A DNA stretch of 64,000 bases from Shinella zoogloeoides (GTDB lineage: Bacteria > Pseudomonadota > Alphaproteobacteria > Rhizobiales > Rhizobiaceae). The notes beneath the pieces were generated by a model. It was not told where the DNA came from, searched no databases, and was given only the letters and a program-made list of their open reading frames with translations. The position numbers and the translations under genes were made by a program. Shown here piece by piece: positions 12,392 to 30,784 of the stretch; position 1 is the stretch's first letter; every line of letters begins with the position of its first letter. The stretch lies in contig NZ_QNUJ01000001.1 in the NCBI RefSeq assembly GCF_003574625.1, positions 62,001-126,000 on the forward strand, in the 5' to 3' direction.

Positions 12392-12408
12392 TGGCTGGGG
12401 AACCTGGA
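12392..12408. repeat. attL core, 17-bp direct repeat
   Basis: TGGCTGGGGAACCTGGA is identical to the 3' end of the tRNA-Gln gene at 30,768-30,784. It sits 118 nt before the integrase start, so it marks the left junction of the integrated element. The repeat covers the CCA end, acceptor strand and part of the T arm. Confidence 0.9.
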
Positions 12409-12460
12409 CAGTAATCCAACTTTTTCTAGCGCCTTGTTTCTGTTTATTTTATTGTTATTA

Positions 12461-12505
12461 TTGACCTATTTCGATCAAAGTTGTAACACCGGACTGTAAC
12501 GCCGG
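12461..12505 (+). promoter_or_regulatory. Integrase promoter with tandem TGTAACRCCGG repeats
   Basis: TTGACC at 12461-12466 and TAACAC at 12484-12489, with 17-nt spacing, form a plausible sigma-70 promoter for the integrase. The -10 lies within the first of two direct repeats, TGTAACACCGG (12482-12492) and TGTAACGCCGG (12495-12505), 13 nt apart. They could bind a regulator or the integrase itself. Confidence 0.55.
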
Positions 12506-12525
12506 GATGCTACACGAGGACCGAA

Positions 12526-14322
12526 ATGGCGCGTATCAGTTACCTTCTCCGTCGCGGCGCAAGCTACTATGCCCGCATCAAGGTTCCGACCGATCTTGTC
12601 GAGATCGTCGGCAGGAAGGAGCTTGTCAAAGCGCTCGGCACGAAAGAGGAAAACGAGGCGAAGCGCCTCATGTGGCCCGTGGTCGAAAACTGGACCCGGC
12701 AGTTTGATGACCTCCGCAGCCGTCGCACGATGACTGCCGACGACAAGGCCCATGCGACGTGGCAGCACTACGAAGCGACCCTTGAACGTGACGAGGCAGC
12801 CCGGCGCACCGCACCGACGCAGGCCGACGTTGACGAGGCGACCCGCGCCATGTTCTCGCGGGCAGAGCGCGGCGAGATAAGCAGCGCCGACCCGCTGGCG
12901 ATCCTCGACGCCACGCTTGAGGTTCAGGCCAAGCAGCGCGCCCACGAGGTAGACGCCATTTCGCGCCGGGCGAAGCTCACCGAGATGCAGAAGCACCTAG
13001 CCAACGGGACGACGGCGCTCATCGCCCACGAGGTAGACGACTACGTTGACCAGAACCGACTTATCGTTGATCGCGACAGCCCCGATTGGAAGGACGCCGC
13101 GCGCTTGATGATGCGCGGCGAGGTCGAAGGCTTGAAGCGGTCTTTCGAGCGCGATGCAGGCGACTACACGGGCAGGCCGTCCGATCCCATCGTCAAGCCT
13201 GTCACCGGCAGCGCCCGCGAGGCCGCAGCGCCCGGCGAAACGATCATGGAGCTTTTCGAGAACTACGCCCGCGAGAACCCGAACCAGATCAAGCCGGACA
13301 CGCTGGCGCAAGCTCGCCGGGACGTGGGCCTGTTCGTTGAATACGTCGGCAGCACATGCCCGGTGCATCGGATCGATAAGAAGGCCGTCCGCGAGTGGAA
13401 GGCGCTCTTGATGCAATACCCGGTCAAGGCGAGCGAGACGAAGGCATTTGACGGCATGAAGCTTGCGCAGATCGTCAAGCACAACGAGACGGTCAAGAAG
13501 CCGACCATCAGCACGACGACCGTTAATCGCTACCTGTCGGGGTTCAGCGCGTTTTGCACTTGGCTGACGAACCACGGCTATCTCACGGCAAACCCTGCCG
13601 CCGATATGTTCTTGAAAAAGTCGAAGGAGAAGACGACGAAGCCCTTCACGGTTGAAGACATGAACGCCCTGTTCAAGTCGCCCTTCTTCACGGGATGCCA
13701 GAGCGACGAAGCCCCGCGCTTTTGGAGCAAGCCCGGTAACGTCCTTATCCGTGACCATCGCTATTGGGTTCCGTTGATCATGCTCTATTCCGGCGCGCGT
13801 CCGGCAGAGATTGCGCAGCTAGGCGTCGATGACGTGCGCGAGGATCGTGGGCATTGGATCATGCACATCACGACAGAGGGGGAGGGCGACAAGAGCGTGA
13901 AGACCGACGGCTCTATGCGCGTCGTCCCGGTCCATCCCGAATTGATCAAGCTTGGCTTGCTCGACTACCATGCTGATATGAATGAGCGCGGTGAAAAACG
14001 CCTGTTCCCGCTGGCAGAGCGCAATGAGCGCGGGCAGATGATCGCCGACTTTAGCCGCGATTTCCCGCGCTACTTGACGAAGATCGGCTTGAAGGAAGGC
14101 CGCGGCCTGTCCCTTTACAGCTTCCGGCATGGTGCGGCTGACGCCCTCCGTCGAGCGGGCTTCCTTGATGAGCAATTCGGTTTCTTGCTCGGCCATACCT
14201 CCGGCACGATGACACAGCGCTACGGCACCCTGCCGCAGGGGATGCTTGAGCAGCGCGTGGAACTAGTGCGTGCAATTGCCTATCCCGGTTTAGACCTAAG
14301 CAGCCTAGTGCCGTTGACGTGA
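12526..14322 (+). CDS. int: Tyrosine recombinase / phage integrase
   Basis: A 598-residue site-specific recombinase that should integrate and excise the element at tRNA-Gln. The N terminus (RISYLLRRGASYYARIKVP) is the DUF6538-type arm domain, residues about 245-350 form the SAM-like core-binding domain, and the catalytic domain lies at about 400-580. It keeps Arg in MLYSGARPAEIAQLG, Arg in YSFRHGAADALRRAG (the HxxR box, with Tyr replacing His), His in LLGHTSG and the nucleophile Tyr in TQRYGTL. GAGGA precedes the ATG. Only attL separates it from the flank. No excisionase was recognised. Confidence 0.93.
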   Translation: MARISYLLRRGASYYARIKVPTDLVEIVGRKELVKALGTKEENEAKRLMWPVVENWTRQFDDLRSRRTMTADDKAHATWQHYEATLERDEAARRTAPTQADVDEATRAMFSRAERGEISSADPLAILDATLEVQAKQRAHEVDAISRRAKLTEMQKHLANGTTALIAHEVDDYVDQNRLIVDRDSPDWKDAARLMMRGEVEGLKRSFERDAGDYTGRPSDPIVKPVTGSAREAAAPGETIMELFENYARENPNQIKPDTLAQARRDVGLFVEYVGSTCPVHRIDKKAVREWKALLMQYPVKASETKAFDGMKLAQIVKHNETVKKPTISTTTVNRYLSGFSAFCTWLTNHGYLTANPAADMFLKKSKEKTTKPFTVEDMNALFKSPFFTGCQSDEAPRFWSKPGNVLIRDHRYWVPLIMLYSGARPAEIAQLGVDDVREDRGHWIMHITTEGEGDKSVKTDGSMRVVPVHPELIKLGLLDYHADMNERGEKRLFPLAERNERGQMIADFSRDFPRYLTKIGLKEGRGLSLYSFRHGAADALRRAGFLDEQFGFLLGHTSGTMTQRYGTLPQGMLEQRVELVRAIAYPGLDLSSLVPLT

Positions 14323-14326
14323 TGGG

Positions 14327-14533
14327 CTACTTTGGCCGCCTGTTGTAGGGTGACTGGTTTGTCGGCTTGAGGGATATGTTCTCATCTTGAGCTTTAGCGC
14401 GGACCGAATCTTCCGTGCGACCTAGCTTAAGGCCCATGACTCGAGTTGGGGTGTTTTCTTTGGCAAGTTGTTTGAGGTCCTTCACGTCCTCACTCGACCA
14501 CGGCTTTCCGTGGTTTTTCGGCTCTTTTGCCAT
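14327..14533 (-). CDS. Small SANT/Myb-like conserved protein
   Basis: A 68-residue basic protein, MAKEPKNHGKPWSSEDVKDL onward, with a WSSEDVKDLKQLA then TRVMGLKLGRTEDSVRAKA layout that resembles a SANT/Myb-type helix-turn-helix. Such short proteins are common in rhizobial genomes and elements; the function is unknown. The ATG at 14533 follows GGAG. It is convergent with the integrase, 4 nt from its stop, and divergent from the structural operon. As the only small DNA-binding candidate beside int, it might act as a regulator or directionality factor, but this is conjecture. Confidence 0.7.
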   Translation of the reverse strand: MAKEPKNHGKPWSSEDVKDLKQLAKENTPTRVMGLKLGRTEDSVRAKAQDENISLKPTNQSPYNRRPK

Positions 14534-14721
14534 TCCACTCTCCATTGCCATCATAAGATGAGTTTAGCCGATTCTTACAAGCAAGAGCGCATGATTCAAT
14601 ATTGCGGAATGATCAATTTTTCTGATTTAGAGTGGCCCAACTATCAATATTTTATAATTTAGGGATTCACTTTTCGTTCCTGTTGTGAGATTCTGCCCTC
14701 AAGTTAATTGAGGACGGACGC

Positions 14722-15960
14722 ATGAACTTTCCCGGTATTGTTTTAAGTGCAAAGAAGGCGCTCGGCTTTCCGGTTGAACAGAAGGCGTATTCCCTCGCTG
14801 ATGCCGCGATCAATGAAATCTTTGGCGTCGTCCCGACTGCATCCGGTGTTGTTGTTACTGCCAATTCCGCGATGGCCGTCCCGGCAGTTCTTCAAGCCGT
14901 CCGGTTAATCTCGGAAACTATCGGATCGTTGCCTTGCAAGCTCTATCGCGAAGCCAGTGACAGCAAGGAAGCGGCCAAGGATCACCCGGCGCACAAGATC
15001 ACCCATAGCCGGGCAAACGACTGGACGAGCGCCGGGCAGCTTCGCGTAGGCCTTACCCTTGACGCCCTGCTTCATGGCGCTGGCTATGCGCAGGTTGTCC
15101 GCGCATCTGACGACCGTCCGCTTGAATTGCATCGGCTCGACCCGTCGAAGGTGCAGCGCCGTTGTGAGGATGACGGCGAACCCTTCTATCTCGTCTCGAC
15201 CGAACGCGGACAGGTCCGGCTCTCCTATCGCGACGTTCTCTATATCCCGGCCTTCGCTGGCGTCTCGCCGGTCAAGCTTGGCCGCGAGGCTATCGGCATC
15301 GGCCTCACCCTCGAAAAGCACACTTCGAACCTGTTTAGCGACGGCGCGCGGCCCAGCGGCATGTTCTGGAGCGAGAACAGCGTTCCCGACACCGATGCGG
15401 GCACGAAGACCATCGCCAACATCTTGAAGGACTACCGGGCGGCGTTCAGCGGCGGCAAGCAGTCGCGTCCGCTCATCGTGCCGAATGGGTTTCGCTACCA
15501 GCAGATGGCCCTTGCCAGCACGGACGCGCAGTTCATCGAAAACCGCCTTGAACAGATCAACGAGGTTGCCCGCGTCTTCGGCGTCCCGCCGCACATGCTC
15601 TATCAGCTTGAACGGGCGACATGGAGCAACGCGGAACAGATGGCCGCGAGCTTCTTGCAGCTTTGCCTTCGCCCTTGGCTCGACAAGTGGCAGGACGCCT
15701 ATGCGACTGTCCTTCTCACGGACGAAGAACGCGACACCCTCTATTTCGAGTTCGTCATTGACGACTTGCAGCGTGCCGACGCCGCAGGCCGGGCCGAAAT
15801 CTTCGGCAAGCTTGTCGCCATGCGCGCCATGACCCCGAACGAAGTCCGCGCCGCAATGAACCTGCCCGCACTGCCGGGCGGCGACGAACTGGCGAACCCC
15901 TACACCACGACGACCACGACCGGCCCGGCAGAACCCCCGCAGCCGAAGGAGAACGCATGA
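14722..15960 (+). CDS. Phage portal protein, HK97 type
   Basis: A 412-residue portal, the ring at the capsid vertex through which DNA is packaged and the tail attached. Recognisable parts are the AVLQAVRLISETIGSLPCKL N-terminal helix, the HDALLHGNGYA-like LDALLHGAGYAQV, RPLELHRLDPSKV, and the clip/stem helix VARVFGVPPHML then WSNAEQMAASFLQLCLRPWL. The C-terminal tail is Thr/Pro-rich. It is the first gene of the structural operon; a TATAAT box at 14653-14658 lies in the AT-rich leader. Its stop overlaps the next start by ATGA. Confidence 0.93.
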   Translation: MNFPGIVLSAKKALGFPVEQKAYSLADAAINEIFGVVPTASGVVVTANSAMAVPAVLQAVRLISETIGSLPCKLYREASDSKEAAKDHPAHKITHSRANDWTSAGQLRVGLTLDALLHGAGYAQVVRASDDRPLELHRLDPSKVQRRCEDDGEPFYLVSTERGQVRLSYRDVLYIPAFAGVSPVKLGREAIGIGLTLEKHTSNLFSDGARPSGMFWSENSVPDTDAGTKTIANILKDYRAAFSGGKQSRPLIVPNGFRYQQMALASTDAQFIENRLEQINEVARVFGVPPHMLYQLERATWSNAEQMAASFLQLCLRPWLDKWQDAYATVLLTDEERDTLYFEFVIDDLQRADAAGRAEIFGKLVAMRAMTPNEVRAAMNLPALPGGDELANPYTTTTTTGPAEPPQPKENA

Positions 15961-16028
15961 CCATCGCCCAGCTTTTGGCTTCGCTCGAAGCCCGCCTTGC
16001 GACCTATGAGAAGGCAACCAAGTCCTAA
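15957..16028 (+). CDS. 23-residue ORF coupled between portal and chaperone genes
   Basis: MTIAQLLASLEARLATYEKA plus three residues, predicted to form one amphipathic helix. The start overlaps the portal stop (ATGA) and its stop overlaps the next start (TAATG), so ribosomes would have to pass through it. It could be a small structural helix peptide or simply a coupling device. No homologue is known to me. Confidence 0.5.
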   Translation: MTIAQLLASLEARLATYEKATKS

Positions 16029-18036: not shown

Positions 18037-18040
18037 CCCT

Positions 18041-18670: not shown

Positions 18671-19020
18671 GTAAGCCCGCCCGCATTTGCTCTTGTGGCC
18701 GTGTCGTCGCGCATGGCGTTCTTTGTGAATGCCAGCGCACCCTCACCCGCGAACGCAATGCCCGTCATGATGCCCGTCGTCCTTCGGCCCGTGCCCGTGG
18801 CTATAACCACGAGTGGCGCAAGGCCCGCACCGAATACCTCGCATCACACCCGCACTGCCGGGAGTGCAGCACCCACGGCATCACCCGCCTTGCGACCGTC
18901 GTGGATCACATCGTTCCGCACCGTGGCGATAAGCGCCTCTTTTGGACGCGGGCTAACTGGCAGCCGTTGTGTGTGCCTTGTCATTCGTCTGCCAAGCAGC
19001 GGCAGGAGCGCGCGCTATGA
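18667..19020 (+). CDS. HNH endonuclease
   Basis: A 117-residue phage HNH nuclease with a zinc-binding CSCG...CECQ N terminus and the HNH core HPHCRECSTHG, VVDHIVPHRGD and NWQPLCVPCH. In HK97-like phages and capsid-forming satellites such a protein works with terminase to nick or cut at cos during packaging. Here terminase is five genes downstream, an unusual separation. Overlaps both neighbours by ATGA. Confidence 0.9.
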   Translation: MSKPARICSCGRVVAHGVLCECQRTLTRERNARHDARRPSARARGYNHEWRKARTEYLASHPHCRECSTHGITRLATVVDHIVPHRGDKRLFWTRANWQPLCVPCHSSAKQRQERAL

Positions 19021-19958
19021 CGCCCGCAGAACGCGCCCGGCAGATCGACAAGGAAGAATTTGAGGCGGAATGCGCAGCTATCCGGCAGCGCGCGATAAGC
19101 TATGCAGCGCGTCGTCGGCTGGAAAGGCGCACCGAGTTTCTAGCTGCGATCAACCGCGAGCCGGTCAAGTTCATTCCGCGCCGCTGGAAGGCGAAGGCCG
19201 CGCCCGCAGCCACGCCGCAGGTTATCGATGTTGAGGCCGCACCCGCACCGGAACCCGTCACGGTAACGGTTTCCATGCCGATCAAGGCCAAGCCGGTTGT
19301 TGTAAAGCAGCCGAAGCCGGAGAAGGTCAAGCAGCCTAAGCCTATCAAGTTGAAGCAACCGAAGCCCGTTGTGATCAAGGCCAAGAAGCCGAAGGCACAG
19401 CCTAAGCGGTTCACCGTTGATGGCCTCACCTTGTCCAAGACCGAATGGGCCAAGCATCTCGGCATCACCTACGGCGCACTCATGGTTCGTATGTCGCGGC
19501 TCGGCTCGCTTGAGGCAGCGATAAAGCTCGACAAGAAGCGCGAGGCTTTCAACGTGAACGGCAAGACCGTCACCGAATGGGCCGAACACTTCGGTCTTGC
19601 CCGCTCCGTCCTGTATCGCCGTATCAAGATCGATGGCAGCGCCGAACGTGTCATCAACGAGTTGATCGATTGCCCGCCCGTTGTCTATCGCCACAGCGAC
19701 GGCGAGCCAAGGGTTGCCCGCACTTACACCTTCGACGGCAAGACCCTGACCGCCCGCGAATGGTCCACCATCACCGGCTTGCATGTCCGCACCCTTCGGT
19801 CACGCATCTCGACCGGCTGGACCATTGAGCACGCTCTGACGACGCCCGCCAACATGAGGCCGGGGGTAGCTTCGAACTTTGCCCCTTCATCGGGGACCGG
19901 CGCGGGGAGCACCGCGCAAGAGACACCGAATATAACTTTTTCAGGGAATGACGCATGA
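19017..19958 (+). CDS. Unknown protein with three tandem HTH-like repeats and a KQPKP linker
   Basis: A 313-residue basic protein. Residues 1-60 are helical and Arg-rich; 90-131 form a Lys-Pro linker with repeated KQPKP. Three related units follow at about 131-169, 178-214 and 237-274, each of the form F-x-V-D/N-G-K-T-L-x-EWA..-G-(6)-L..RI..-(S/W)-EHAI, for example YTFDGKTLTAREWSTITGLH. Such units occur in phage proteins as small helix-turn-helix DNA-binding modules. The role is unknown: DNA recognition during packaging, or a regulator. It overlaps HNH before it and the connector gene after it. Confidence 0.75.
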   Translation: MTPAERARQIDKEEFEAECAAIRQRAISYAARRRLERRTEFLAAINREPVKFIPRRWKAKAAPAATPQVIDVEAAPAPEPVTVTVSMPIKAKPVVVKQPKPEKVKQPKPIKLKQPKPVVIKAKKPKAQPKRFTVDGLTLSKTEWAKHLGITYGALMVRMSRLGSLEAAIKLDKKREAFNVNGKTVTEWAEHFGLARSVLYRRIKIDGSAERVINELIDCPPVVYRHSDGEPRVARTYTFDGKTLTAREWSTITGLHVRTLRSRISTGWTIEHALTTPANMRPGVASNFAPSSGTGAGSTAQETPNITFSGNDA

Positions 19959-20257
19959 CCGTCGTATCGCTCGACCTCGCCAAGCAGCACATGAAGGTGG
20001 ACGGAACCGCCGAAGATGAGCTTATCACGCTCTACATCGACGGCGCGGAAGCGTGGATTGCCAACTATATCGGGAAGCCGCTCGCCGACTTCGATCCTGT
20101 CCCGGCAGACGTGAAACTCGCCGTCTTGAAGCTCGTCGCCTTCTACTACGAGGTTCGCAGCCTCGCGACCTACGGCCTTTCCGTCGATATGGCACCGCAG
20201 GGCGTGACCGCGATCCTCGATAGCTACCGTGAAAGGTGGTTCGGCGATGGCGAATAA
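19955..20257 (+). CDS. Head-tail connector protein, gp6-like
   Basis: A 100-residue helical protein with the HK97 gp6/SPP1 gp15 pattern: MTVVSLDLAKQHMKVDGTAE (a stretch of DLAK.HL.VD.DDED), LITLYIDGAEAWIANYIGKP, and VKLAVLKLVAFYYEVR. It forms the ring under the portal. Start overlaps the previous stop by ATGA. Confidence 0.9.
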   Translation: MTVVSLDLAKQHMKVDGTAEDELITLYIDGAEAWIANYIGKPLADFDPVPADVKLAVLKLVAFYYEVRSLATYGLSVDMAPQGVTAILDSYRERWFGDGE

Positions 20258-20678
20258 GACCGACAACGGCCTCGCCGAGACGATGGCAGCATTCGACCGC
20301 ATCGCCCGCGCGCCGCGTGAGGCCGTGCTTCCTGCCCTTATGAAGTCCGGTAACGAACTCGCAGCGGCCCAGAAGGCACTTGCGGAAACGTCCCGCGATA
20401 CCGGCGCGCTCATCGACAGCATCGCCGTCACCATGCCCGGCCATTCGACGCCCGCGTATAGCCAGCCGGGCGGCAGTCGCGTTGCCGGTGAAACGGAAGT
20501 CATCGTGACGGCTGGAAACAGTGACGTGCGTTACGCGCACCTTGTCGAATACGGCACGTCCGACGCGGAAGCGCAGCCCTTCTTTTGGCCTGCCCTCCGT
20601 CTTCTCCGCAAGCGCCTGCAAAACCGCATCAATCGCGCCGCGAAGAAGGCCGTCAAAGACGCATGGAATGAGCAATGA
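20247..20678 (+). CDS. HK97 gp10-family tail completion / morphogenesis protein
   Basis: A 143-residue protein with the gp10 features: an N-terminal helix with ALMKSGNELAAAQKAL, TGALIDSIAVTMPG, and VRYAHLVEYGTSDAEAQPFF, the family's typical HLVEFGT..M.A.PF signature, then a Lys/Arg-rich C-terminal helix. The ATG at 20247 is preferred because AAAGGTGG precedes it; a GTG at 20229 is in frame. It caps the connector so the tail can join. It overlaps gp6. Confidence 0.88.
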   Translation: MANKTDNGLAETMAAFDRIARAPREAVLPALMKSGNELAAAQKALAETSRDTGALIDSIAVTMPGHSTPAYSQPGGSRVAGETEVIVTAGNSDVRYAHLVEYGTSDAEAQPFFWPALRLLRKRLQNRINRAAKKAVKDAWNEQ

Positions 20679-21091
20679 TTGAACCGACCCTCGCCTTACA
20701 GACCGCTATCCGCGCCCGCCTCATCGGCAAGCAGGACGTGACCGACCTTGTTCCGGCAGACCATATCCGGGCAGGCAGCACGCGGCCCGACAAGACGCCG
20801 TGCATCATCATGTCGGACGGCAACACCGCCCTGCACGGCCACGACTACAGCAGCCAGCGCACGGCATGGGTCTACCTCGACCTTCATATCTGGACGCTCG
20901 ACGCCGGTCAGGACGCGGCGAAGGAGATTGCAGGCGTCGTAACCGCGGCCCTCGAAAAGCGGAACCTCGCTATCGAAGGCGGCTATTGCGATCACTTCAA
21001 GGTCACGGCGTCCCGGTTCCCGCGCGACCCCGACCCCGCCTACGGTCATGGCGTCCTGTCCGTCGAAGCCCTCATTCGGTGGATTGTCTGA
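20675..21091 (+). CDS. DUF3168 tail completion protein (GTA gp8-like)
   Basis: A 138-residue protein beginning MIEPTLALQTAIRARLIGKQ, with the DUF3168 pattern VPADHIRAG, PCIIMSDGN, VYLDLHIWTLDAGQDAAKEI and HGVLSVEALIRWIV. The family links the head-completion ring to the tail tube. ATGA overlap before, TGATG overlap after. Confidence 0.87.
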   Translation: MIEPTLALQTAIRARLIGKQDVTDLVPADHIRAGSTRPDKTPCIIMSDGNTALHGHDYSSQRTAWVYLDLHIWTLDAGQDAAKEIAGVVTAALEKRNLAIEGGYCDHFKVTASRFPRDPDPAYGHGVLSVEALIRWIV

Positions 21092-21408
21092 TGCTCAATA
21101 TCGGGAACCTTGATCGCCGCATCACCATCGAGCGCGAGACGGAAACCGTCATGCCGTCCGGCAGCGTCGTGAAAGCGTGGACGCCGGTTGCGACGGTATG
21201 GGCCGAACTCATCCAGCAGACGGCGAGCGAGTTTTTCACCGGCTACGGCGAGGCAGAAACCGGCACCGTGATTTTTCGTGTCCGTTATCGCCCTGGCATC
21301 ACGACTGCCGACCGCGTGACCTATGACGGCACTGCCTACGGCATCAAGGAAATCAAGGAACTCGGCAGGCGTGACGCGCTCGAACTTCGCGGCGAGGCCC
21401 TGACGTGA
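21091..21408 (+). CDS. Phage head closure protein (SPP1 gp16-like)
   Basis: A 105-residue protein with the Phage_H_T_join pattern: LNIGNLDRRITIERETET, VWAELIQQTASEFF, VIFRVRYRPGITTADRVTYD and YGIKEIKELGRRDALEL. It seals the connector after packaging. The neighbouring genes overlap at both ends. Confidence 0.9.
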   Translation: MLNIGNLDRRITIERETETVMPSGSVVKAWTPVATVWAELIQQTASEFFTGYGEAETGTVIFRVRYRPGITTADRVTYDGTAYGIKEIKELGRRDALELRGEALT

Positions 21409-21812
21409 CCCATCTTCGCGGCGTCAAGCCCGCCCTTGCACCCGACCGCGCACCGCTCACGAAGGCACCGACCGCGCCTAAGTGGATGACGGATGACGCG
21501 CGTGCGGAGTGGAAGCGGATCATGCCGCGCTTGATCGAAGATCGGATCATCACCCGCGCCGACCTGACCGGCATCGAGAACTATTGTGTCGCCGTGGGCC
21601 GCGTGCGCGAGATTGAGGCCATGTTCCGCAGTTACGGCACCTTGGACAAGACCCTGTTCGGGATGCAGAACCGCGCAATGCAGACGGCCCGGCAGCTTGC
21701 GGCGGAATACGGCTTGTCGCCGACCTCGCGCGCCCGTGTCGGCAGTGCAGCCGACAGCGACGATGACGGCGACAACCCCATGAGCGTCGGCAGGAACCGC
21801 GCCCATGCCTAA
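21405..21812 (+). CDS. Terminase small subunit, P27 family
   Basis: A 135-residue protein from a GTG start within GTGA. It has the P27 features LTKAPTAPKWMTDDARAEWK, LIEDRIITRADLTGIENYC, and LFGMQNRAMQTARQLAAEYG then LSPTSRARV. It recognises the DNA to be packaged and hands it to the large subunit. It overlaps the large-subunit gene by 8 nt. Confidence 0.9.
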   Translation: MTHLRGVKPALAPDRAPLTKAPTAPKWMTDDARAEWKRIMPRLIEDRIITRADLTGIENYCVAVGRVREIEAMFRSYGTLDKTLFGMQNRAMQTARQLAAEYGLSPTSRARVGSAADSDDDGDNPMSVGRNRAHA

Positions 21813-23451: not shown

Positions 23452-23462
23452 GAACAGCCGAA

Positions 23463-26114
23463 ATGGATGATACGCAGCGCCTTGTCGTCAGCCTCGAAGC
23501 CCGCATGACGAAGTATGAGCGGGATATGGCCCGCGCCCGCAACGCGACGAACGACAACTTCAAGAAGATGGAAGGTCGCGCCCAGCAGTCGGCGCGCAAC
23601 ATGGAACGGACGATGGGCCGGGCGTCCGCGTCCATCGGCGAAAAGCTCCAGGGCATGTTCGCCCCGCTCATGAGGGGCGGCGCGGTTGTCGCTGGCGTCG
23701 GTGGCGCTGCTATCGCCCTCAAGGAAATCGCCAACAGCATCGCCGAAGTAGACCGCGAGGCCCGCAAGGCTGGCGTCACGTCGAAGGCTTGGCAGCAGTG
23801 GACCTATGTTGCGACCGCAACCGGCATGAGCATCGACGGCGTGACCGACGCCCTCAAGGAATTGAATATTCGCGGCAAGGAATTCGCATTGACCGGGAAG
23901 GGGAGCGCCGAAGCCGCGTTTCAGCGCCTCGGCTATTCCGCAACCGACGTTGCGCAGAAGTTGCAGGACCCTAGCCGTTTCATGGATGAAATCATCGGCA
24001 AGCTTAAGAAGCTGGATATGGCACAGCAGACCTTGGAGCTTGACGAAATCTTCGGCGGAACCGGTGCGGAACAGATGGCGAAGGTTCTCGGCCTGTCCGT
24101 CGCGGAAATCCAGAAGATGCGCAGCGAGGCCGCGACGTTTTCCGACGAGCAGGTTGAAGCCGCGAAGCGGATCGATCGCGAGTTCTCGACCATGTGGCGC
24201 AACTTCACGGTCTACGCCAAGCAGGCCGCGATTGAAGGCGTCAACGTCGCTTCGAAGGTGATCGACTTCATAAACAACCCGGGCGATCCGGGCGGGAGGA
24301 AGTATAAGGCTCTCATCGACCGCTACAACTCGCCGGAAGAGCAGTTGAAGCGGTTGCAGAAGCAGCGCGCCGGTATTGTCGCAGCCATTGAGCGCGAGAA
24401 GGCGAACACCGGCAACTTCTTGCAGCAGCAGGAGCTTCGCCAGCTTAATGCCGCCCTGTCTGCCGTGGACGACCAGATTCATGAGGTCACGGGCGGCAGC
24501 GACGAGTTTAAGCAGGCGCTCAAGGAACTGTCCGCAGCGAGCAACAGCTTGTCCGGCGCGTTCGGTGGCAACGTCACGGCGGCGGCCAACTTCAAGACGG
24601 CCCTTGTCGAACTCAAGAACCTCGTGCCGGAGTTGAAGGCCGAACTTGACACCCTCGCCACGACGGACGGCATCGACGCGGCCTACAATAAGGCCGTGCA
24701 GAACGCCCGCACCATGGGCGAGGTTATGAACGCCACGGACCTTGCGAACCGCGCCAAGAGCATCGCCCGTTTCGGCAAGCACGACAACATTCTCGACCTC
24801 ATCGCCAGCGTCGAAAGCGGCGGGGACTACAATGCGACCCTCGACAATGGCCGGTGGACGGGCGGCGCGCAGAACCTCACCGGCATGACCTTGAATCAGG
24901 TCCGCGACTTACAGCGCCGTATGCTCGCCGATCCGGCGAACCGCGCCCTCTACGGCGACGGAAAGGGTTCGTCCGCGCTTGGCCGCTACCAGATCACCGG
25001 CCGGACGCTTGAAGGCTTGATGAAGGAGCTTGGCCTTTCCGGTGATCGTCTGTTCGATCAGGACACCCAGGACGAACTTGCCCGCGCCCTTCTTCGCCGT
25101 CGCGGCAATGATCCGGCAGAGCTTCGCAACGAGTGGGAAGGTTTGCGTCGTGTAGACGACGGCACCATTCGCAACGCTTACAACGGCACGCCCACCGCAG
25201 CCCAGCCGCTTGCGCCGACCGATAGCGAACGCGAGCGCACCGAACTCATCCGGCAGCAGGACGCGGCCCGTAAGAGCTTGAACCAGAGTGTCGAGGAAGG
25301 TCTTGCGCTCGCCCGTTTCGAACAGTCGATTTCCGGCATGTCTGCACAGCAGCAGCGTGTCGAGCTTGCCGTCTATCAGGCGCAGCAGGAGGCCAAGCGC
25401 GCGGGCATCACCTTGTCCGATCAGGAGCTTGCCAAGATCCGCGAGAAGATCACCCTCACCCAGCAGCTTGACGCGACGAACCAGCAGGTCGCCACGTCGT
25501 CGGACGGACTGCGCAACGCCCAGCAGTATTTTGCGGAAAGCTTCACGTCGTCCCTGTCGGGTCTTCTCACCGGGACGCAGGACTTGAACGGCGCGGTGCG
25601 CAACCTCATCAACAGCTTGATCGATGCCGCGTTGCAGGCCGCGCTTCTCGGCAAGGGTCCGCTCGGGGGGCTGGGTGGCGTCGGCGGTGGCCTCTTCGGT
25701 TTGCTCTTCGGCTTTAGCGAGGGCGGTTATACCGGCGACGGCGGGAAGTATCAGGCCGCAGGCGTCGTGCATCGTGGCGAATACGTGCTTTCGAAGGAGG
25801 CGACCCGGCGCGCGGGCGTGGCAAACCTCGACGCGCTGCATTCGTCGCTCAAGGGATACGCGGCAGGCGGTTACGTCGGCGGCGCGCCCGCGATCCGCAA
25901 GCCCGACCTCAAGGCCGCAAACAGCAACGCGACGAACGTCGTCACCATCTCGCCCGCGATCACCATCAACGCCAACGGTGGCGAGCCGGCACAGAACGCA
26001 GACCTCGCCGCGAAGGTAGGGAAGCAGGTCGAACAGCAGATGCGTGGCCTTGTGGCTGACGAGCTTCGCCGTCAGACGAAGGTAGGCAACTACATGAACC
26101 AGAGGGGCCGTTAG
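23463..26114 (+). CDS. Tail tape-measure protein with internal lysozyme-like domain
   Basis: An 883-residue protein. The N-terminal about 110 residues are the usual RLVVSLEARMTKYERDMARA coil, then a hydrophobic stretch and long coiled coils. Residues about 435-580 form a muramidase-like domain: LIASVESGGDYN with candidate catalytic Glu near 451, SSALGRYQITGRTLEGLM and DQDTQDELARALLRRRG. The C terminus has FSEGGYTGDGGKY and VVHRGEYVLSKEATRRAG, typical of tape-measure proteins. It sets tail length and may cut peptidoglycan at entry. It is the last structural gene; nothing resembling tail tube, baseplate or fibres follows. The ATG at 23463 is chosen; one at 23433 overlaps terminase. Confidence 0.9.
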   Translation: MDDTQRLVVSLEARMTKYERDMARARNATNDNFKKMEGRAQQSARNMERTMGRASASIGEKLQGMFAPLMRGGAVVAGVGGAAIALKEIANSIAEVDREARKAGVTSKAWQQWTYVATATGMSIDGVTDALKELNIRGKEFALTGKGSAEAAFQRLGYSATDVAQKLQDPSRFMDEIIGKLKKLDMAQQTLELDEIFGGTGAEQMAKVLGLSVAEIQKMRSEAATFSDEQVEAAKRIDREFSTMWRNFTVYAKQAAIEGVNVASKVIDFINNPGDPGGRKYKALIDRYNSPEEQLKRLQKQRAGIVAAIEREKANTGNFLQQQELRQLNAALSAVDDQIHEVTGGSDEFKQALKELSAASNSLSGAFGGNVTAAANFKTALVELKNLVPELKAELDTLATTDGIDAAYNKAVQNARTMGEVMNATDLANRAKSIARFGKHDNILDLIASVESGGDYNATLDNGRWTGGAQNLTGMTLNQVRDLQRRMLADPANRALYGDGKGSSALGRYQITGRTLEGLMKELGLSGDRLFDQDTQDELARALLRRRGNDPAELRNEWEGLRRVDDGTIRNAYNGTPTAAQPLAPTDSERERTELIRQQDAARKSLNQSVEEGLALARFEQSISGMSAQQQRVELAVYQAQQEAKRAGITLSDQELAKIREKITLTQQLDATNQQVATSSDGLRNAQQYFAESFTSSLSGLLTGTQDLNGAVRNLINSLIDAALQAALLGKGPLGGLGGVGGGLFGLLFGFSEGGYTGDGGKYQAAGVVHRGEYVLSKEATRRAGVANLDALHSSLKGYAAGGYVGGAPAIRKPDLKAANSNATNVVTISPAITINANGGEPAQNADLAAKVGKQVEQQMRGLVADELRRQTKVGNYMNQRGR

Positions 26115-26362
26115 TCATGGACTTCAAGCAGCCCCTCGCGTTCTTCGTGCCAGTCCCTCACCTTCTCGCATAGCAAGCCTAAGAACGCCTCGAAAAACAG
26201 GTGCTCGGTCTCACCGTTCGGAGTGAAGGCGTAGAACACGTCATCAATGACATGCCATGTGCCGATGATCTCGCCATCGGCAATGTAGATTACGTCACCG
26301 CTTTCGCATTCGCGCTCTGTCATGCCGTCCAGATACAGCTTCCAATGCTTGGGAATTTCCAT
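26111..26362 (-). CDS. Small acidic protein of unknown function
   Basis: An 83-residue acidic protein, MEIPKHWKLYLDGMTERECE onward, with VIYIADGEIIGTWHVID suggesting a small beta-rich fold. No family was recognised. GGAG precedes the ATG. It is convergent with the tape-measure gene and overlaps its stop by 4 nt, and it marks the switch from the structural operon to the right arm of the element. Confidence 0.65.
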   Translation of the reverse strand: MEIPKHWKLYLDGMTERECESGDVIYIADGEIIGTWHVIDDVFYAFTPNGETEHLFFEAFLGLLCEKVRDWHEEREGLLEVHD

Positions 26363-26764: not shown

Positions 26765-26956
26765 AAGCGTGACAGGTTTCCGCGTTCCACTAATTCTATA
26801 ATTACTAATAGATTATATAACTATTATATATTTACGAACGGAGGATTTTGTCACGCTTAGGAAAGGCACCCGGAACGCCTCTCTTTGTCACGCTTCCGGG
26901 AGTTAGAACGCTGCACCCCGTCACGCTAAGCTAGAACGGTGCATTTCGTCACGCTT
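26765..26956. repeat. Five bipartite 23-bp iterons flanking an AT-rich core
   Basis: Each unit reads GAACG, nine variable bases, then GTCACGCTT (one ends in A). Four direct copies lie at 26836-26858, 26873-26895, 26906-26928 and 26934-26956; one inverted copy lies at 26765-26787. Between the inverted copy and the direct copies, 26788-26835 is strongly AT-rich (for example ATTATATAACTATTATATAT). Iterons beside an AT-rich stretch are typical of replication origins, but could also be operators for the adjacent promoter, or packaging sites. The fixed 9-nt gap points to one protein touching both half-sites. Confidence 0.85.
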
Positions 26957-26961
26957 CAAGA

Positions 26962-27005: not shown

Positions 27006-27040
27006 TTCCCATGCGCCGCACGTAACGGAGACACCACGGC

Positions 27041-27583
27041 ATGGGACGGATGAATTTAAGCGGCTGGACGCCGGAGGCGATTGCGGCTCGCAAGCAGCAA
27101 CAGGCCAATGACAGGCAGAAGCGAAAACGCGCCAAGGAAAAGGAAGAACGCGACATGGCGAAGAAGAAGGAAGTGCTCACCGAAAGCTCGCCGGAGGTTG
27201 TGGAATTCGTTGATGACCTTCGCGGGTTGAAATTCGTTGGCATGATTGAACTGATCGCGGCATGGGAACGCCGCTACAAGCAGCCCTTTCCAATCGGCAG
27301 TTCTGTTGTCGCCATCCCCGGCGAAACTCATGCCGAATATCATGAGCGTTTCGAGCACCATCGGCAGATGGCCTTAGCGAAGTTCTATTCGCAGGACTTC
27401 TATGCCCGGCAGAAGGCCAAGGAGCGGAAGAAGGCCTTCGACACCAAGGAAGCGATGGAAGCCAAGCGGGCGGGTATCTCTGTCTTCGAACTTCAAAAGC
27501 GCCGCAAGATCGCCGCAGCCGCAGCGGCAGAGGCGAAGAAGGCCCGGCAGGTCCAGCGGCTCGCCGACAAGATCGCGGCCTAA
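27041..27583 (+). CDS. Hypothetical highly charged protein
   Basis: A 180-residue Lys/Arg/Glu-rich protein. Residues 10-45 and 120-180 are predicted coiled-coil or single helices (KQQQANDRQKRKRAKEKEER; RRKIAAAAAAEAKKARQVQR). A short ordered centre, about 50-115, contains LRGLKFVGMIELIAAWERRY. The function is unknown. It is the first gene downstream of the iterons and of promoter module A, so it is the best positional candidate for a replication or copy-control protein, though no motif supports this. Confidence 0.6.
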   Translation: MGRMNLSGWTPEAIAARKQQQANDRQKRKRAKEKEERDMAKKKEVLTESSPEVVEFVDDLRGLKFVGMIELIAAWERRYKQPFPIGSSVVAIPGETHAEYHERFEHHRQMALAKFYSQDFYARQKAKERKKAFDTKEAMEAKRAGISVFELQKRRKIAAAAAAEAKKARQVQRLADKIAA

Positions 27584-27584
27584 C

Positions 27585-27629: not shown

Positions 27630-27670
27630 TCGATTATCACCGGGCGGACTCACCAGTTGGTTGGAGATAA

Positions 27671-27748
27671 ATGAGAACGCCGGTCGCAGCGGCTTCCAGT
27701 CTTTTGCGGCTGGCAAGAATAGCCCCTCACGGTTTGCGCAAACCGTGA
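27671..27748 (+). CDS. 25-residue leader-peptide-like ORF overlapping a terminator
   Basis: TTGGAGATAAATG gives a good ribosome site. The peptide is short, Ala/Leu/Arg-rich and ends ARIAPHGLRKP. Its last nine codons and stop lie inside the terminator hairpin at 27,721-27,754, so a translating ribosome would melt the stem. There is no run of one amino acid as in classical biosynthetic attenuators. It may be a chance ORF within a small RNA. Confidence 0.4.
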   Translation: MRTPVAAASSLLRLARIAPHGLRKP

Positions 27749-27759
27749 GGGGCTTTTTC
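27721..27759 (+). terminator. Strong intrinsic terminator
   Basis: A perfect inverted repeat (AGCCCCTCACGGTTTG and its complement) closes on a GC-rich tip and is followed by TTTTT. It is the strongest terminator in the element. Confidence 0.88.
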
Positions 27760-27777
27760 GAGCCTGCGAAGACGAGC

Positions 27778-27795
27778 TAAGTAAGCGCTTACTTA
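27778..27795. promoter_or_regulatory. 18-bp perfect palindrome, candidate operator
   Basis: TAAGTAAGCGCTTACTTA is fully self-complementary. It lies in an AT-rich stretch about 100 nt upstream of the 65-residue ORF at 27894, suitable for a dimeric repressor. No cognate regulator is identified. Confidence 0.5.
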
Positions 27796-27893
27796 TTGTT
27801 TTTATTGATAAAACTTCAATACACCCTCTTGCCAAATCACGCCGCATGAATCACATGTGCCTCGCCTAATCACGGGCCGGGGACATAATCGAA

Positions 27894-28091
27894 ATGCAGC
27901 CTGCCGTTTACTTCCATACCGACGCCTACCTTCACGCCATCGATACCGTCGAGAACGTCGCCCGGTCCTTCGACCCGGCCGAACCCGCCGACCTTCGCAC
28001 GCGCATTATGGAAGCCCTCGGCGATCTCGGCATTTGGCCAATGGAGATTTTCAACGGGCAGGATGAGGGCGAGGTAATCGTGGCCGTGTAA
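27894..28091 (+). CDS. Small acidic hypothetical protein
   Basis: A 65-residue acidic protein, MQPAVYFHTDAYLHAIDTVE onward, with DPAEPADLRTRIMEALGDLG and a C-terminal GEVIVAV strand. It resembles no known family to me. A weak GGGGA ribosome site precedes it. Small acidic proteins are common among phage and satellite anti-host or regulatory factors, but nothing specific can be said. Confidence 0.5.
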   Translation: MQPAVYFHTDAYLHAIDTVENVARSFDPAEPADLRTRIMEALGDLGIWPMEIFNGQDEGEVIVAV

Positions 28092-28108
28092 AAAAATGAA
28101 ACACCCTG

Positions 28109-28148
28109 TTGACAATTGTGAATGTGAATTCTATTTTCACATTCACAA
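28109..28148 (+). promoter_or_regulatory. Sigma-70 promoter overlaid by a perfect 13-bp inverted repeat operator
   Basis: TTGACA (28109-28114), 17 nt, TATTTT (28132-28137) is a near-consensus promoter. Arms TTGTGAATGTGAA (28116-28128) and TTCACATTCACAA (28136-28148) form a perfect inverted repeat with a 7-nt centre that covers the spacer, the -10 and the start region. Each arm contains TGTGAA twice in tandem. A bound dimer or tetramer would block RNA polymerase, so this is probably a tightly repressed promoter. Confidence 0.75.
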
Positions 28149-28161
28149 CAGGAGTTCACTG

Positions 28162-28695
28162 ATGGCAAAGACGGCACTAGAGCGCAAACGCGAACAGCTT
28201 AACCGTGAGGCGTCACGTCTCCGATTATTGACGGAAAGCACTTATCCCTTCCTCAAGCTGCCATTCTTTCAGTGGTTGGACGAAAACAGCGGGCAAGAAT
28301 GGGATAATGGCGACCTTCACAAAGACGCCTCGCGGATCATCTTCCCGGCCTTTGAAGACGATAGCGGTCCACGCTCCGTGGACGGGGAAGTCGAACGGAT
28401 CGGTAAGGATGACCCGGAAGCGGACCCCTACGCCGGTTATGCTGGCTCTATCGGGCGGGCGGAACGTCTTGTTGACGATCTACTTGCCCTCGCCAGCATC
28501 TACGCCAACACGATCAACACCTACAAGAAGGAGGAACTGACCGCCCGCATCAAGGAAATCGAAGACGCTGACTTGTCCGACCCGGACACGAAGAAGAAGG
28601 CGCTCGCCGACATTGTGCGGTTGCGCAAGATGCTGGAACGGCTCGACAAGGCAAGTCGCATTAGCATTCCAGAATACAAGATCAAGGGCATCTAA
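28162..28695 (+). CDS. Hypothetical helical protein under operator control
   Basis: A 177-residue protein starting MAKTALERKREQLNREASRL, with an N-terminal coiled coil, a central acidic region (WLDENSGQEWDNGDLHKDAS) and a C-terminal coiled coil ending in IVRLRKMLERLDKASRI. No family was recognised. The ATG at 28162 follows GGAG; an upstream in-frame ATG at 28096 lies before the promoter and is rejected. It is the first gene behind the strong palindromic operator, hence likely an early or lysogeny-controlled function. Confidence 0.6.
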   Translation: MAKTALERKREQLNREASRLRLLTESTYPFLKLPFFQWLDENSGQEWDNGDLHKDASRIIFPAFEDDSGPRSVDGEVERIGKDDPEADPYAGYAGSIGRAERLVDDLLALASIYANTINTYKKEELTARIKEIEDADLSDPDTKKKALADIVRLRKMLERLDKASRISIPEYKIKGI

Positions 28696-28788
28696 CGCCC
28701 GGAAGAAGGGGAACGGCAAAGCGAAGTTTGGTCGCCGAGCTTTGCCGCCCCGCAATCTCACACAGCAATAACAGCTAAGGAAATCACC

Positions 28789-29169
28789 ATGTCTCTCGAA
28801 GATACCACGACCCAGGCACCCGCCGCAACGATCACGGAACGGGAGCTTTGGGCGATTTTCGTCGCTAATGCTTGGCAGACCACGTTTAGCATGGGTCCGA
28901 CTGTCGAGCGGTGCAAGCCCGAAGACCTTCTTCGCGATCCGGGCATCCACGGTCTTACGTCAGAACTCTCGTCCAGCCTTGCGGATGCGGTCGAAGAAGT
29001 TGATGATCCGACTAGCGAACTCGACTGCTTCATTGACGATATCGAATCATATCTCGCTAACTTGAAGCGGGTTCGCGACCATTTCGATCGCATCAAGGAT
29101 GCGTTCGTGGTTGACGATGATGGCGACGAAGTTCGCTATCGGATGCCCGTGGTTTCGGAGGCCGCGTAA
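28789..29169 (+). CDS. Hypothetical acidic protein
   Basis: A 126-residue acidic, mostly helical protein (TITERELWAIFVANAWQTTF; VDDPTSELDCFIDDIESYLA). No domain was recognised. It follows the operator-controlled gene after 93 nt that contain an 8-bp GGCAAAGC/GCTTTGCC hairpin, and it sits 1 nt before the next ORF, so the two are probably co-transcribed. Confidence 0.55.
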   Translation: MSLEDTTTQAPAATITERELWAIFVANAWQTTFSMGPTVERCKPEDLLRDPGIHGLTSELSSSLADAVEEVDDPTSELDCFIDDIESYLANLKRVRDHFDRIKDAFVVDDDGDEVRYRMPVVSEAA

Positions 29170-29170
29170 C

Positions 29171-29365
29171 ATGACGATCATCGTCCATGATAAGCCGAAG
29201 CTCACCCGTCGTCACGAACTAGAATTTGAGATTGCCGGGCTGATCGAGGAAGCGGCTACGTCCGACGAGAAGGTCAGCCCGGATGGACTCGCAAGCTCCA
29301 TCCTTGACCTTATCGAAATTGAGACGGGCGTCACGTTTGACGGCCCGCCCATGAGCGCCACGTAG
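29171..29365 (+). CDS. Small hypothetical protein
   Basis: A 64-residue acidic helical protein, MTIIVHDKPKLTRRHELEFE onward, with EIAGLIEEAATSDEKVSPDG and ILDLIEIETGVTFDGPPMSA. No family is recognised. It starts 1 nt after the previous stop. A GC-rich hairpin follows. Confidence 0.5.
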   Translation: MTIIVHDKPKLTRRHELEFEIAGLIEEAATSDEKVSPDGLASSILDLIEIETGVTFDGPPMSAT

Positions 29366-29387
29366 CACACTAGGCACGTCAACCAGT

Positions 29388-29418
29388 AGAAGCCCGCCGC
29401 GAACATCGGCGGGCTTCT
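29388..29418. terminator. Hairpin between convergent genes
   Basis: AGAAGCCCGCCG pairs with CGGCGGGCTTCT around a 7-nt loop. It separates the rightward small-gene operon from the leftward cargo gene. There is no long T-run on either side, but the 12-bp stem is perfect. Confidence 0.55.
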
Positions 29419-29427
29419 GTATGATTA

Positions 29428-30630
29428 CTACCTGCCGAAAGTCATCTTCGGTTTCCGCTTGCCAGTCCGTTCCTCGAAGTATTCCACCGGCCACTCTGTT
29501 AGCGGGAAAATCTCGTGGAAATCGTCGTGGAGATTTTGAGCGAGGATTGGCAGGGTGTTCAAAAGCTTGTGCGCGTTAACCTCCGTTTCACGAATGAGGT
29601 CGCCGGCTCGCCATGCGTCATCGCCGCTTCTCTCGACGTAACGTTCATCAGCCACTCCACCATTGTGCTCGTAGACGTGACGCCGTTCCAACATCATCTT
29701 GAGGAAGTCCGTCGTCGGGCCGTCGATGCCTCTCAGCAGATCGACCTCGAACGCTGATTTTACCTCGTTAAAGGTGGCGCTCTCGATGTCATGAAAAATG
29801 AGACGATCTAGTCGCTTCATCCTAGAGGGCTTCATAGGGATGCGCTTTTTAAGTTGGTTGATCACGTCCCTACACGATGCATCGAACGCGGACACTGCCC
29901 TGCTGACAACAGCGTCGGGCGAGATCGATTTGTCTTTGAGTCCGCTTCGAAGCTTTTGAAAGCTATCGTTCAAGCTTGCCATGTTGTTGCGGTAGCCGCA
30001 CGACGCGCAATAGCCGAATAGTCCGCGAATATCGTTAAACTCGCCGCACTTCACACACTCGAAGCGTGTTTGCTGCGTTTCCGACACATAGTAGAAGTCC
30101 GGGCGATTGCCGGTGTCTTCAGACCTAGCAATCGCGTCCATGTCGATCACGAACTCGGTCTCTGTTCCGGGTTCTAGGTCCGCCTCGATAGCTTCGTAGT
30201 AGGTCGCGATGTAGTGTTTGATGTATCTAACATGCGCCTCCGTGAGGAAATGAAAGGCTTGTGTCCTCAGTCCGCAATAGGGGCATGTGAGTGGGTATAT
30301 CGCAGGATGTGTTCCGTTGCGGTAGTAGCCGCTGCATCGTGGGCACTGGTGGCCCCATTTACCGTGAGAGTCGGACCCTAGGAACACTGCCATGCAGCCA
30401 GCCGGACAAGCTGGCTCGAAGGCTTGACCTATGCCGCCCATCCTAACGTCTGAAACGGGAAACCCTTGAGGCACCGCAGCATAGATAGCGATCATGACCA
30501 TTGGGCCGGGACTTGAGCCGCGAAACCCCGCTGCGATGCTTAGGGCGCCATTCTCATCGCATCGGACGGCAAAAGTCGCCTGTCCGCCGCAATGAGCGAT
30601 CTCGGTAAAGTCTTCGCTGTATGCTTTCAT
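29428..30630 (-). CDS. Zinc-ribbon protein with C-terminal HEPN-like domain, candidate defence or toxin protein
   Basis: A 400-residue protein. The N-terminal half has paired cysteines: C96-C99 with C116-C119, and C192-C195 with C208-C211, plus C75 and C79, so two or three zinc ribbons. The C-terminal region (about 225-370) is helical and carries ERRHVYEHNGGVADERYV at 315-332, which matches the Rx4-6H signature and flanking Asn-Gly of HEPN RNase domains (R317-x4-H322). HEPN proteins often act as RNases in abortive infection. The gene lies alone, against the main transcription direction, between the last element gene and the tRNA, a usual place for cargo. The domain call is by motif only. Confidence 0.6.
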   Translation of the reverse strand: MKAYSEDFTEIAHCGGQATFAVRCDENGALSIAAGFRGSSPGPMVMIAIYAAVPQGFPVSDVRMGGIGQAFEPACPAGCMAVFLGSDSHGKWGHQCPRCSGYYRNGTHPAIYPLTCPYCGLRTQAFHFLTEAHVRYIKHYIATYYEAIEADLEPGTETEFVIDMDAIARSEDTGNRPDFYYVSETQQTRFECVKCGEFNDIRGLFGYCASCGYRNNMASLNDSFQKLRSGLKDKSISPDAVVSRAVSAFDASCRDVINQLKKRIPMKPSRMKRLDRLIFHDIESATFNEVKSAFEVDLLRGIDGPTTDFLKMMLERRHVYEHNGGVADERYVERSGDDAWRAGDLIRETEVNAHKLLNTLPILAQNLHDDFHEIFPLTEWPVEYFEERTGKRKPKMTFGR

Positions 30631-30767
30631 TGCGATCCCCTGTTCGCAGCAACTATCTTCGATAGCTAGGCGAGTCGCAATGTCACGTCTGTATCAACTA
30701 CTAAGCTGTAACACTTAGCTTTCGCTAATGTTATTTAAGTGTTTGATTTTACTGAGAAAGATGGAGA

Positions 30768-30784
30768 TGGCTGGGGAACCTGGA
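30768..30784. repeat. attR core, 17-bp direct repeat within tRNA-Gln
   Basis: Identical to the 17 bases at 12,392-12,408. Integration at this site rebuilt an intact tRNA gene on the right side. Confidence 0.9.

Follow-up and report, generated by a model that had tools for sequence, protein, structure and literature searches.

The capsid-forming phage-inducible chromosomal islands (cf-PICIs) go back to a founding paper by Alqurainy (2023). Phage-inducible chromosomal islands (PICIs) are defined by regulators of the Stl/AlpA type, and cf-PICIs have a replication module of their own, with a primase or initiator. Gene transfer agents (GTAs) are vertically inherited clusters with a full tail and without integrase or attachment (att) sites. 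Chimeric tails have, to our knowledge, so far been shown in one Vibrio system. Here we describe an element in a 64,000-nt stretch of the Shinella zoogloeoides genome (contig NZ_QNUJ01000001.1, positions 62,001 to 126,000; hereafter the window). It spans 18,376 bp between its att repeats, at window positions 12392-30784, and is integrated in tRNA-Gln. The element is probably a capsid-forming phage satellite whose tails are chimeric: its own tape measure protein (TMP) and chaperones would work within the tube and tip of a helper phage.

The cf-PICIs encode their own capsid, protease, portal, connectors, small and large terminase subunits (TerS and TerL) and HNH endonuclease, and use helper tails (PMC10690885). 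A Stl-like regulator is mentioned for elements of this type (PMC13230959). In V. cholerae, PLE11 encodes a TMP, a tail assembly chaperone (TAC) and a hub protein, and its chimeric tails differ from phage tails by the expected 10 nm (PMC12987554, Nature 2026). PLE chimeric tails were demonstrated by transmission electron microscopy, blot and mass spectrometry, and the PLE TMP is incorporated in the virion. The same paper describes Rta, a PLE11 protein that works through the helper TMP, and notes putative tmp genes among the cf-PICIs that it sampled (Extended Data Fig. 10 legend). The principle of satellite TMP and TAC genes and chimeric tails is already in print (PMC12987554). What is new here is a tube-less clade whose relatives have tail genes in graded sets, the exchange of a cell-wall-enzyme domain within the TMP, a candidate iteron origin, alphaproteobacterial hosts, and the clade-wide combination of a TMP and two chaperones with a self-made head.

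Comparison with described systems

The 18,376-bp stretch is an insertion, because its flanks are contiguous without it in related genomes. One genome of the same species has them joined (99% over the 267-nt join), as has one of the same genus (89%), and the join is spanned from base 72-79 onward in 3 more of 20 other genomes of the genus. The genes on the + strand run in the order integrase, portal, TacA, protease-capsid fusion, TacB, HNH, HTH/HNH-related protein, Ad1, Neck1, tail terminator, Hc1, TerS, TerL and TMP. Pfam and PHROG scans together with repeat searches bear out the gene list of the original prediction, made from the same DNA (an integrase, a head and packaging set, connectors, two chaperone-like genes, an 883-residue TMP and 17-bp repeats). 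The absences it listed also held, as these scans recognised no tail tube, tip, fibre, lysis, repressor or replication protein, and no distal tail or hub protein, in the element.

With cf-PICIs the element shares its own capsid, protease, portal, connectors, terminases, HNH and integrase genes and, as we infer for the element, tails taken from a helper. It has an integrase and att sites in the host chromosome, and no tube, tip or lysis genes were recognised in it, though a TMP and chaperones are present. It differs in that its capsid and protease are fused, its hosts are alphaproteobacterial and its clade has a TMP and two chaperones universally, as far as scored. No Stl/AlpA-type regulator was recognised by Pfam or PHROG in the element or its downstream open reading frames (ORFs), where small unmatched ORFs remain, and no primase or initiator protein was recognised in the element, in which a candidate iteron origin is present. 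The earlier proposal of a self-packaging satellite with its own TMP stands as the best reading; its assignment to the PICIs is not established. By its head and packaging genes the element looks like a cf-PICI, and we stop short of calling it a proven member of the PICIs.

PLEs share with the element satellite-encoded TMP and TAC genes, and take the tube and other tail parts from the phage. The predicted fold of TacA resembles the PLE chaperone 5ir0. PLEs take over the helper capsid in modified form and use a lytic phage's contractile tail, whereas the head genes of the element are its own and its TMP is of the siphophage type. Because it has its own capsid gene, the element may work like a PLE at the tail but is no PLE. 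The Streptomyces satellites Mulch and Flayer likewise have capsid and packaging genes and lack key replication genes; their helpers are virulent, their authors report no significant homology to PICIs, and the term 'tape measure' does not occur in the paper (PMC10690885). The cf-PISP satellite-plasmids of Vibrio make heads, are 15.8 kb in size, have no tail genes and exist in plasmid form (PMC13230959); the plasmid relatives found here are alphaproteobacterial, one with a TMP and a tube gene. The integrase, att sites and empty site set the element apart from GTAs. Of the genes of a complete temperate siphophage, none for tail tube, tip, lysis or replication was recognised.

Tape measure, chaperone and tube genes in the family

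Relatives were collected with a TerL profile as the best 80 of 258 loci in named genomes and the best 80 of at least 575 in viral contigs, two lists that overlap (three pairs tested were identical). The collection was scanned by TerL only, so that the TMP was unselected, although the TerL seeds came from TMP-bearing loci. When 165 different TerL sequences were placed in an unrooted FastTree tree, a single branch (support 100, length 0.29) split 129 rows, the window among them, from the other 36. No tube gene was found in the 107 scorable rows of the 129-row clade, the sequences of the other 22 not covering the capsid region. Outside the clade, 24 of the 36 rows had a tube, 9 had none and 3 were undecidable. 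The TMP was present in 128 of the 129 clade rows, the exception (L161) being a 4.2-kb contig. Among the tube-less clade rows with portal, capsid and TMP, TacA was present in 104/104 and TacB in 103/104; the row without TacB (L108) is a copy of ~8.6 kb after gene loss. The original prediction had called the TMP unusual. It is general in this clade, and PLEs and some cf-PICIs have it as well (PMC12987554).

Some relatives do carry a tube. The capsid-TacB gap, measured in 170 loci with a capsid match (a few of them ordinary phages), was at most 60 bp in 138, 60-250 bp in 5 and more than 250 bp in 27. Eight gap proteins and one from the episomal relative pMPOP02, where a tail tube is annotated between capsid and chaperone, match the major tail family phrog_158. 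The idea that no relative has a tube was rejected, since the gap encodes a major tail protein in a minority of loci. A tube profile, run on the two TerL lists, the stretches taken around the TMP and the window, found a tube in 20/160 loci with TerL-TMP adjacency and a capsid region (duplicates kept) and in none of the other 140, which include the window; a gpM-like protein was present in 23 loci. The 255 ORFs downstream of the TMP in complete viral-contig elements gave 109 cluster representatives. Among the matches listed for these (25 of 30 PHROG families, full Pfam), one tail family appeared, that of a gpM-like minor tail protein (7 ORFs in one cluster), and no hub, fibre or lysis family. 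For the 97 ORFs downstream of the TMP in 24 tube-bearing loci, the first 25 of 84 families listed included 7 matches to a tail chaperonin family, 2 each to distal tail and gpM, and 4 to partition ATPases, and further tail genes are possible there. The tube was likely lost rather than gained in the clade, because sister lineages and phages carry tail genes. Relatives continuing into tube, baseplate and lysis modules would have marked the element as a simple deletion derivative; no tube was detected in the 107 scorable clade rows, and no hub, fibre or lysis family among the downstream matches listed for the complete viral-contig elements.

The TMP shows purifying selection. Its dN/dS was 0.14-0.18 against 7 of 8 relatives and 0.52 against the eighth (L070), in which the TMP is far more diverged. 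Among nine further pairs, dN/dS was 0.09-0.21 in the 6 informative ones, and the other 3 were identical. In 4/15 aligned TMPs (G247, G259, G263, G192), a D-Ala-D-Ala peptidase-like stretch replaces the lysozyme-like middle, as judged by eye, and a copy from S. meliloti (strain Ak57, on pSymB) is annotated as D-alanyl-D-alanine carboxypeptidase. On S. meliloti pSymB, a satellite TMP with a carboxypeptidase-like domain (L358, 13653-16370) is flagged as vanY glycopeptide resistance at 30.7% identity, likely a false positive. A 597-aa TMP in another genome of the window's genus (G273, L063/L064) is akin to the C-terminal part of the window TMP and is followed by a c3 homologue. There is no TerL match ahead of it, and it is perhaps a different satellite kind or a remnant.

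Both chaperone-like proteins were examined by fold. TacA is predicted to have a tail-chaperone-like fold; the predicted fold of TacB is helical, without a solved-structure match. A Foldseek search against PDB gave neither protein a match at E 0.001, and a profile search of solved structures gave nothing useful for either.

Gene order is widely kept. All 12 core genes were found by profile in 60/80 genome loci and 63/80 viral contigs, and the order of the window (portal-TacA-protease/major capsid protein-TacB-HNH-Ad1-Neck1-terminator-Hc1-TerS-TerL-TMP) in 59 and 63 of these, or 122/160. Of the 38 loci without the full order, 22 were judged truncated where their contig stops. In eight genome loci (L130-L132, L134, L136, L138, L141, L143) no TacA and mostly no TacB was recognised, and the remainder showed gene loss, a different order or another kind of locus. 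By title, 75/80 named loci are Alphaproteobacteria, four give no class and one is a metagenome-assembled genome titled Exiguobacterium; thus, the range is class-wide rather than the rhizobial setting first proposed. The 80 named loci span ten named families, and not all are complete elements. The Exiguobacterium profundum locus (L104, CP059262.1) most likely comes from a mislabelled alphaproteobacterial bin. Our literature search, which did not reach the founding cf-PICI and SatelliteFinder papers, found no description of this alphaproteobacterial family.

Within the host's family, a TMP search of 297 genomes gave a match in 139, and 59 stretches around the TMP were taken. TerL was directly followed by the TMP in 35 of these, from 33 genomes; with the window's own, the arrangement is present in at least 34/297 genomes, which is a lower bound. 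The other 24, judged by ORF layout rather than gene by gene, mostly resembled ordinary phages or fragments. Four loci (L247, L248, L256, L257) run from capsid to terminator, an ORF of ~147 aa at the tube position, TacA, TMP and long proteins at the tip position. By ORF layout, G104 and G259 hold both the element kind and the phage-like kind.

A tRNA-derived repeat flanked both sides in 58/87 loci. After removal of 7 rows (duplicate records and copies with lost head genes), the 51 elements with tRNA att repeats had a size of 17,720 bp (standard deviation 682, range 15,766-19,089). Core length and remaining length were inversely correlated (r -0.41), and the size spread was below all but 0.16% of 20,000 permutations (P 0.0016), a statistic that ignores relatedness and includes two incomplete TMP readings (438 and 486, the shortest; the longest TMPs reach ~969 aa). 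The narrow size fits a head of fixed capacity.

Plasmid relatives were also found. The plasmid pMPOP02 of Methylorubrum populi (L357, NC_010721.1) has the genes from portal to TerL plus a TMP and a tail tube gene. A 17,494-bp plasmid of Paracoccus marcusii (L354, NZ_CP157016.1) has portal to TerL and a replication initiation protein, with no annotated integrase. These two are possible alphaproteobacterial satellite-plasmids. Portal and terminase genes were also present on small plasmids of Methylorubrum (L355, NZ_CP088250.1, 16,127 bp) and Roseomonas (L356, CP099479.1, 16,883 bp).

Proposed mechanism and alternative explanations

In the satellite reading, a helper phage would enter or be induced, and the element would be excised and amplified, perhaps from the iteron origin by replication proteins not its own. 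Its genome of ~18 kb would be packaged in its own heads. TacA and TacB would hold the element TMP while helper tube subunits polymerise around it on the helper tip, so that tail length would be set by the element and its own cell-wall-degrading domain supplied. The tail would then be joined to the head by the element's terminator and neck proteins, and the particle released through helper lysis proteins.

Several points weigh against this reading, in which helper, particle and excision are predictions from gene content. PHROG (phrog_8985) and the PF11836 description attach the label 'tail tube protein' to the family of TacA, as do the names of 3/50 viral fold matches shown for it, and a TacA that formed the tube would leave the element less dependent on a helper. 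We rejected this label because of the predicted fold and because eight loci hold TacA beside a separate tube. The predicted role of TacB as a chaperone leans on a weak profile match. The tube profile detects only phrog_158-like tubes, and five clade rows (L088, L117, L121, L188, L259) have a further small ORF in the capsid-TacB gap, three matching phrog_5707 and two without any match. Two phrog_5707-like proteins from other lineages also weakly match a major tail family (L136, 1.7e-4; L131, 2.1e-3); L131, L136, L141 and L144 have a separate phrog_158-like tube besides. Viral contigs include provirus predictions and are therefore not proof of virion packaging.

In the host assembly (99.97% complete), a search covering TMP, PF06199/phrog_158 tube, gpM-like and hub families found no second TMP, no such tube and no gpM-like gene; a resident helper with a homologous tail thus did not come to light, and the host prophage with matching tail genes that the original prediction proposed to look for did not appear among these families. 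The helper is perhaps a virulent phage. The single hub domain lies inside a decayed-looking GTA-like cluster on contig C6 (G000, L268/L269), in one open frame with an Ad1-like start (852 aa as called). This cluster has a capsid gene and then the fused frame, with no tube or TMP found, which suggests that it is internally deleted.

The TMP could serve to jam the helper tail instead of entering the element's own. This idea belongs to an alternative in which the element is a head-only satellite, its TMP and chaperones are weapons that spoil helper tails by competition, and its heads take finished helper tails. Rta of PLE11 does act via the helper TMP (PMC12987554), and interference with helpers is common among satellites. 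Nevertheless, the TMP retains one or the other of two kinds of cell-wall-enzyme domain, which would be needless in a decoy, the element retains its own tail terminator and neck protein, and the PLE TMP enters the virion (PMC12987554); we regard the weapon explanation as unlikely. The element might instead be a small phage that is autonomous, its tail unrecognised or its TMP acting as an ejection protein without a tube. No function is assigned to five downstream ORFs (c1-c5) or to a cysteine-rich protein, a tube is present in sister elements, and a distal tail family is matched by two of the ORFs downstream in tube-bearing relatives. However, the TMP-attR interval leaves ~4.7 kb for small ORFs and one 400-aa gene, lysis and replication genes were unrecognised, and chaperones and a terminator make little sense without a tube, which renders autonomy decidedly unlikely.

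Tails might also be borrowed from a resident GTA rather than from a phage, as the similarity of TacA and TacB to the GTA gp10/TAC families would allow. The only GTA-like cluster found in the host is the decayed-looking one on contig C6, and this source is highly improbable. Least probable is a decayed prophage or deletion derivative, an explanation that would account for the lack of recognisable tube, tip, lysis and replication genes. Because 122/160 loci share 12 genes in one order, a simple deletion derivative is very unlikely; the att ends are exact, the size is narrow, the genes are intact and under purifying selection, and the tube is undetected across the clade.

With more doubt than confidence, we extend the satellite reading to the clade as a whole. 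It may be a stable, tube-less, head-making satellite lineage that always brings a TMP, chaperones and a swappable lysozyme/peptidase drill, and always takes tube and tip. Tail length and wall penetration would then be independent of the helper, a phage-type iteron origin would serve helper replication, and the tube-bearing sisters would record steps from phage to satellite. The family is a large natural alphaproteobacterial series with complete head genes and graded tail gene sets, so that it is directly testable which parts of a tail a satellite needs to encode itself and which can be taken from another phage. Given this family, chimeric tails are likely common, and satellites in symbionts such as Sinorhizobium are a place to seek helpers.

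Candidate origin, downstream genes and other features

The features of the element are collected in Table 1.

Table 1. Features of the element, with window coordinates and supporting matches
Feature	Position	Strand	Evidence or remark
attL, 17-bp direct repeat TGGCTGGGGAACCTGGA	12392..12408	none	repeat search; empty-site comparison
Tyrosine integrase, 598 aa	12526..14322	+	phrog_1 2e-35
Portal protein, 412 aa	14722..15960	+	PF04860 4e-87
TacA, tail-assembly-chaperone-like, 153 aa	16028..16489	+	GTA gp10 family
Protease-major capsid fusion, 516 aa	16486..18036	+	PF04586 1.9e-15; PF05065 5.9e-82
TacB, predicted two-part tail assembly chaperone, 209 aa	18041..18670	+	weak PF09550 1.4e-4; PF11836 0.04
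HNH endonuclease, 117 aa	18667..19020	+	phrog_2323 1.2e-30
HTH/HNH-related basic protein, poorly conserved	19017..19958	+	phrog_3377 3.7e-17 (scan from GTG at 18969)
Head-tail adaptor Ad1	19955..20257	+	phrog_40 1.3e-27
Neck1 / tail completion protein	20247..20678	+	phrog_5 2.2e-21 (scan from GTG at 20229)
Tail terminator	20675..21091	+	phrog_176 1.5e-11
Head closure Hc1	21091..21408	+	PF05521 1.6e-22
TerS	21405..21812	+	phrog_83 2.5e-29
TerL, 548 aa	21805..23451	+	phrog_9 3.7e-126
TMP, 883 aa, internal lysozyme-like domain (about aa 440-580)	23463..26114	+	phrog_10574 1.8e-87; domain: phrog_430
83-aa ORF	26111..26362	-	a few relatives have homologues in this position (cluster of 6); without PHROG match
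Candidate origin: one AGCGTGAC and four GTCACGCT iterons flanking an AT-rich tract (about 26787-26836)	26766..26955	none	
c1, basic protein adjoining iterons	27041..27583	+	no Pfam or PHROG match
20-bp palindrome, 95% complementary, terminator-like	27718..27757	none	
c2, small ORF	27894..28091	+	homologues in relatives
Promoter-like site, element's best (10 of 12), palindrome overlapping	28109..28147	+	predicted regulated promoter of c3
c3, conserved ORF	28162..28695	+	58 homologues besides itself
c4, small ORF	28789..29169	+	homologue in G003
c5, small ORF	29171..29365	+	ORF only
Cysteine-rich protein, 400 aa, probable cargo	29428..30630	-	no match over cut-off
attR, second 17-bp repeat copy	30768..30784	none	3' end of tRNA-Gln

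The iteron array lies between the TMP and c1, and its 5 copies compare with at most 3 in 30 block shuffles, a comparison in which only 26/162 loci exceeded their own shuffles. In a second array test, CCGGAA arrays stood out in 16/158 loci (versus 1 control stretch in terL), GTTCCG in 10/158 (versus 0) and GTCACG in 7/158 (versus 0). Other elements of the family have different repeated words at the iteron position. A three-copy iteron pattern matched 73 viral stretches, the window's own element included; all were checked for density and coding overlap, and 12 for neighbour genes. The protein beside the array matched replicative helicase/primase families in 6/6 viral contigs tested, which were picked from the 12 for a sizeable neighbouring ORF and so were not blind; two of them, L298 and L301, are alike. 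Another of the 12 (L334) is a satellite of the window's kind. Since arrays adjoin helicase/primase genes in viral contigs, while the element has no recognisable such protein, we infer that the iteron stretch is a candidate origin served by helper replication proteins.

In 394 genomes of the host's family the iteron pattern gave 5 matches, versus 0 for the reversed-pattern control. Besides the window itself, these comprised three sites on chromosomes with no phage genes visible around them and, in G276, a prophage-like site where no helicase gene was seen. Identification of the helper through the iterons was attempted and abandoned, as no helper emerged from the viral or the 394-genome matches. 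The G276 site (L353, 9799-9856) has three AGCGTGAC iterons just past a tRNA-like sequence near phage-like genes; the same genome also carries an element of the window's family (L232).

The element's ORFs downstream of the TMP had no family match over the cut-off (c2 and c5 were not scanned singly), and a protein search found a Pfam domain in none of the 58 c3 homologues. Over the whole element there was no clear excess of promoter-like sites (7, shuffle mean 5.3) or terminator-like sites (18, shuffle mean 19.6). The tRNA was the sole match in an Rfam scan, and an ARAGORN call at 11183-11276, an odd tRNA with a four-base anticodon, is probably spurious. Between integrase and portal, a 75-aa ORF on the - strand (14327-14554) is a candidate small DNA-binding regulator. 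In viral contigs, the genes downstream of the TMP gave single matches to a Pycsar cyclase, TIR, a BglII-type restriction enzyme, a methyltransferase and Abi-alpha, possible anti-phage cargo.

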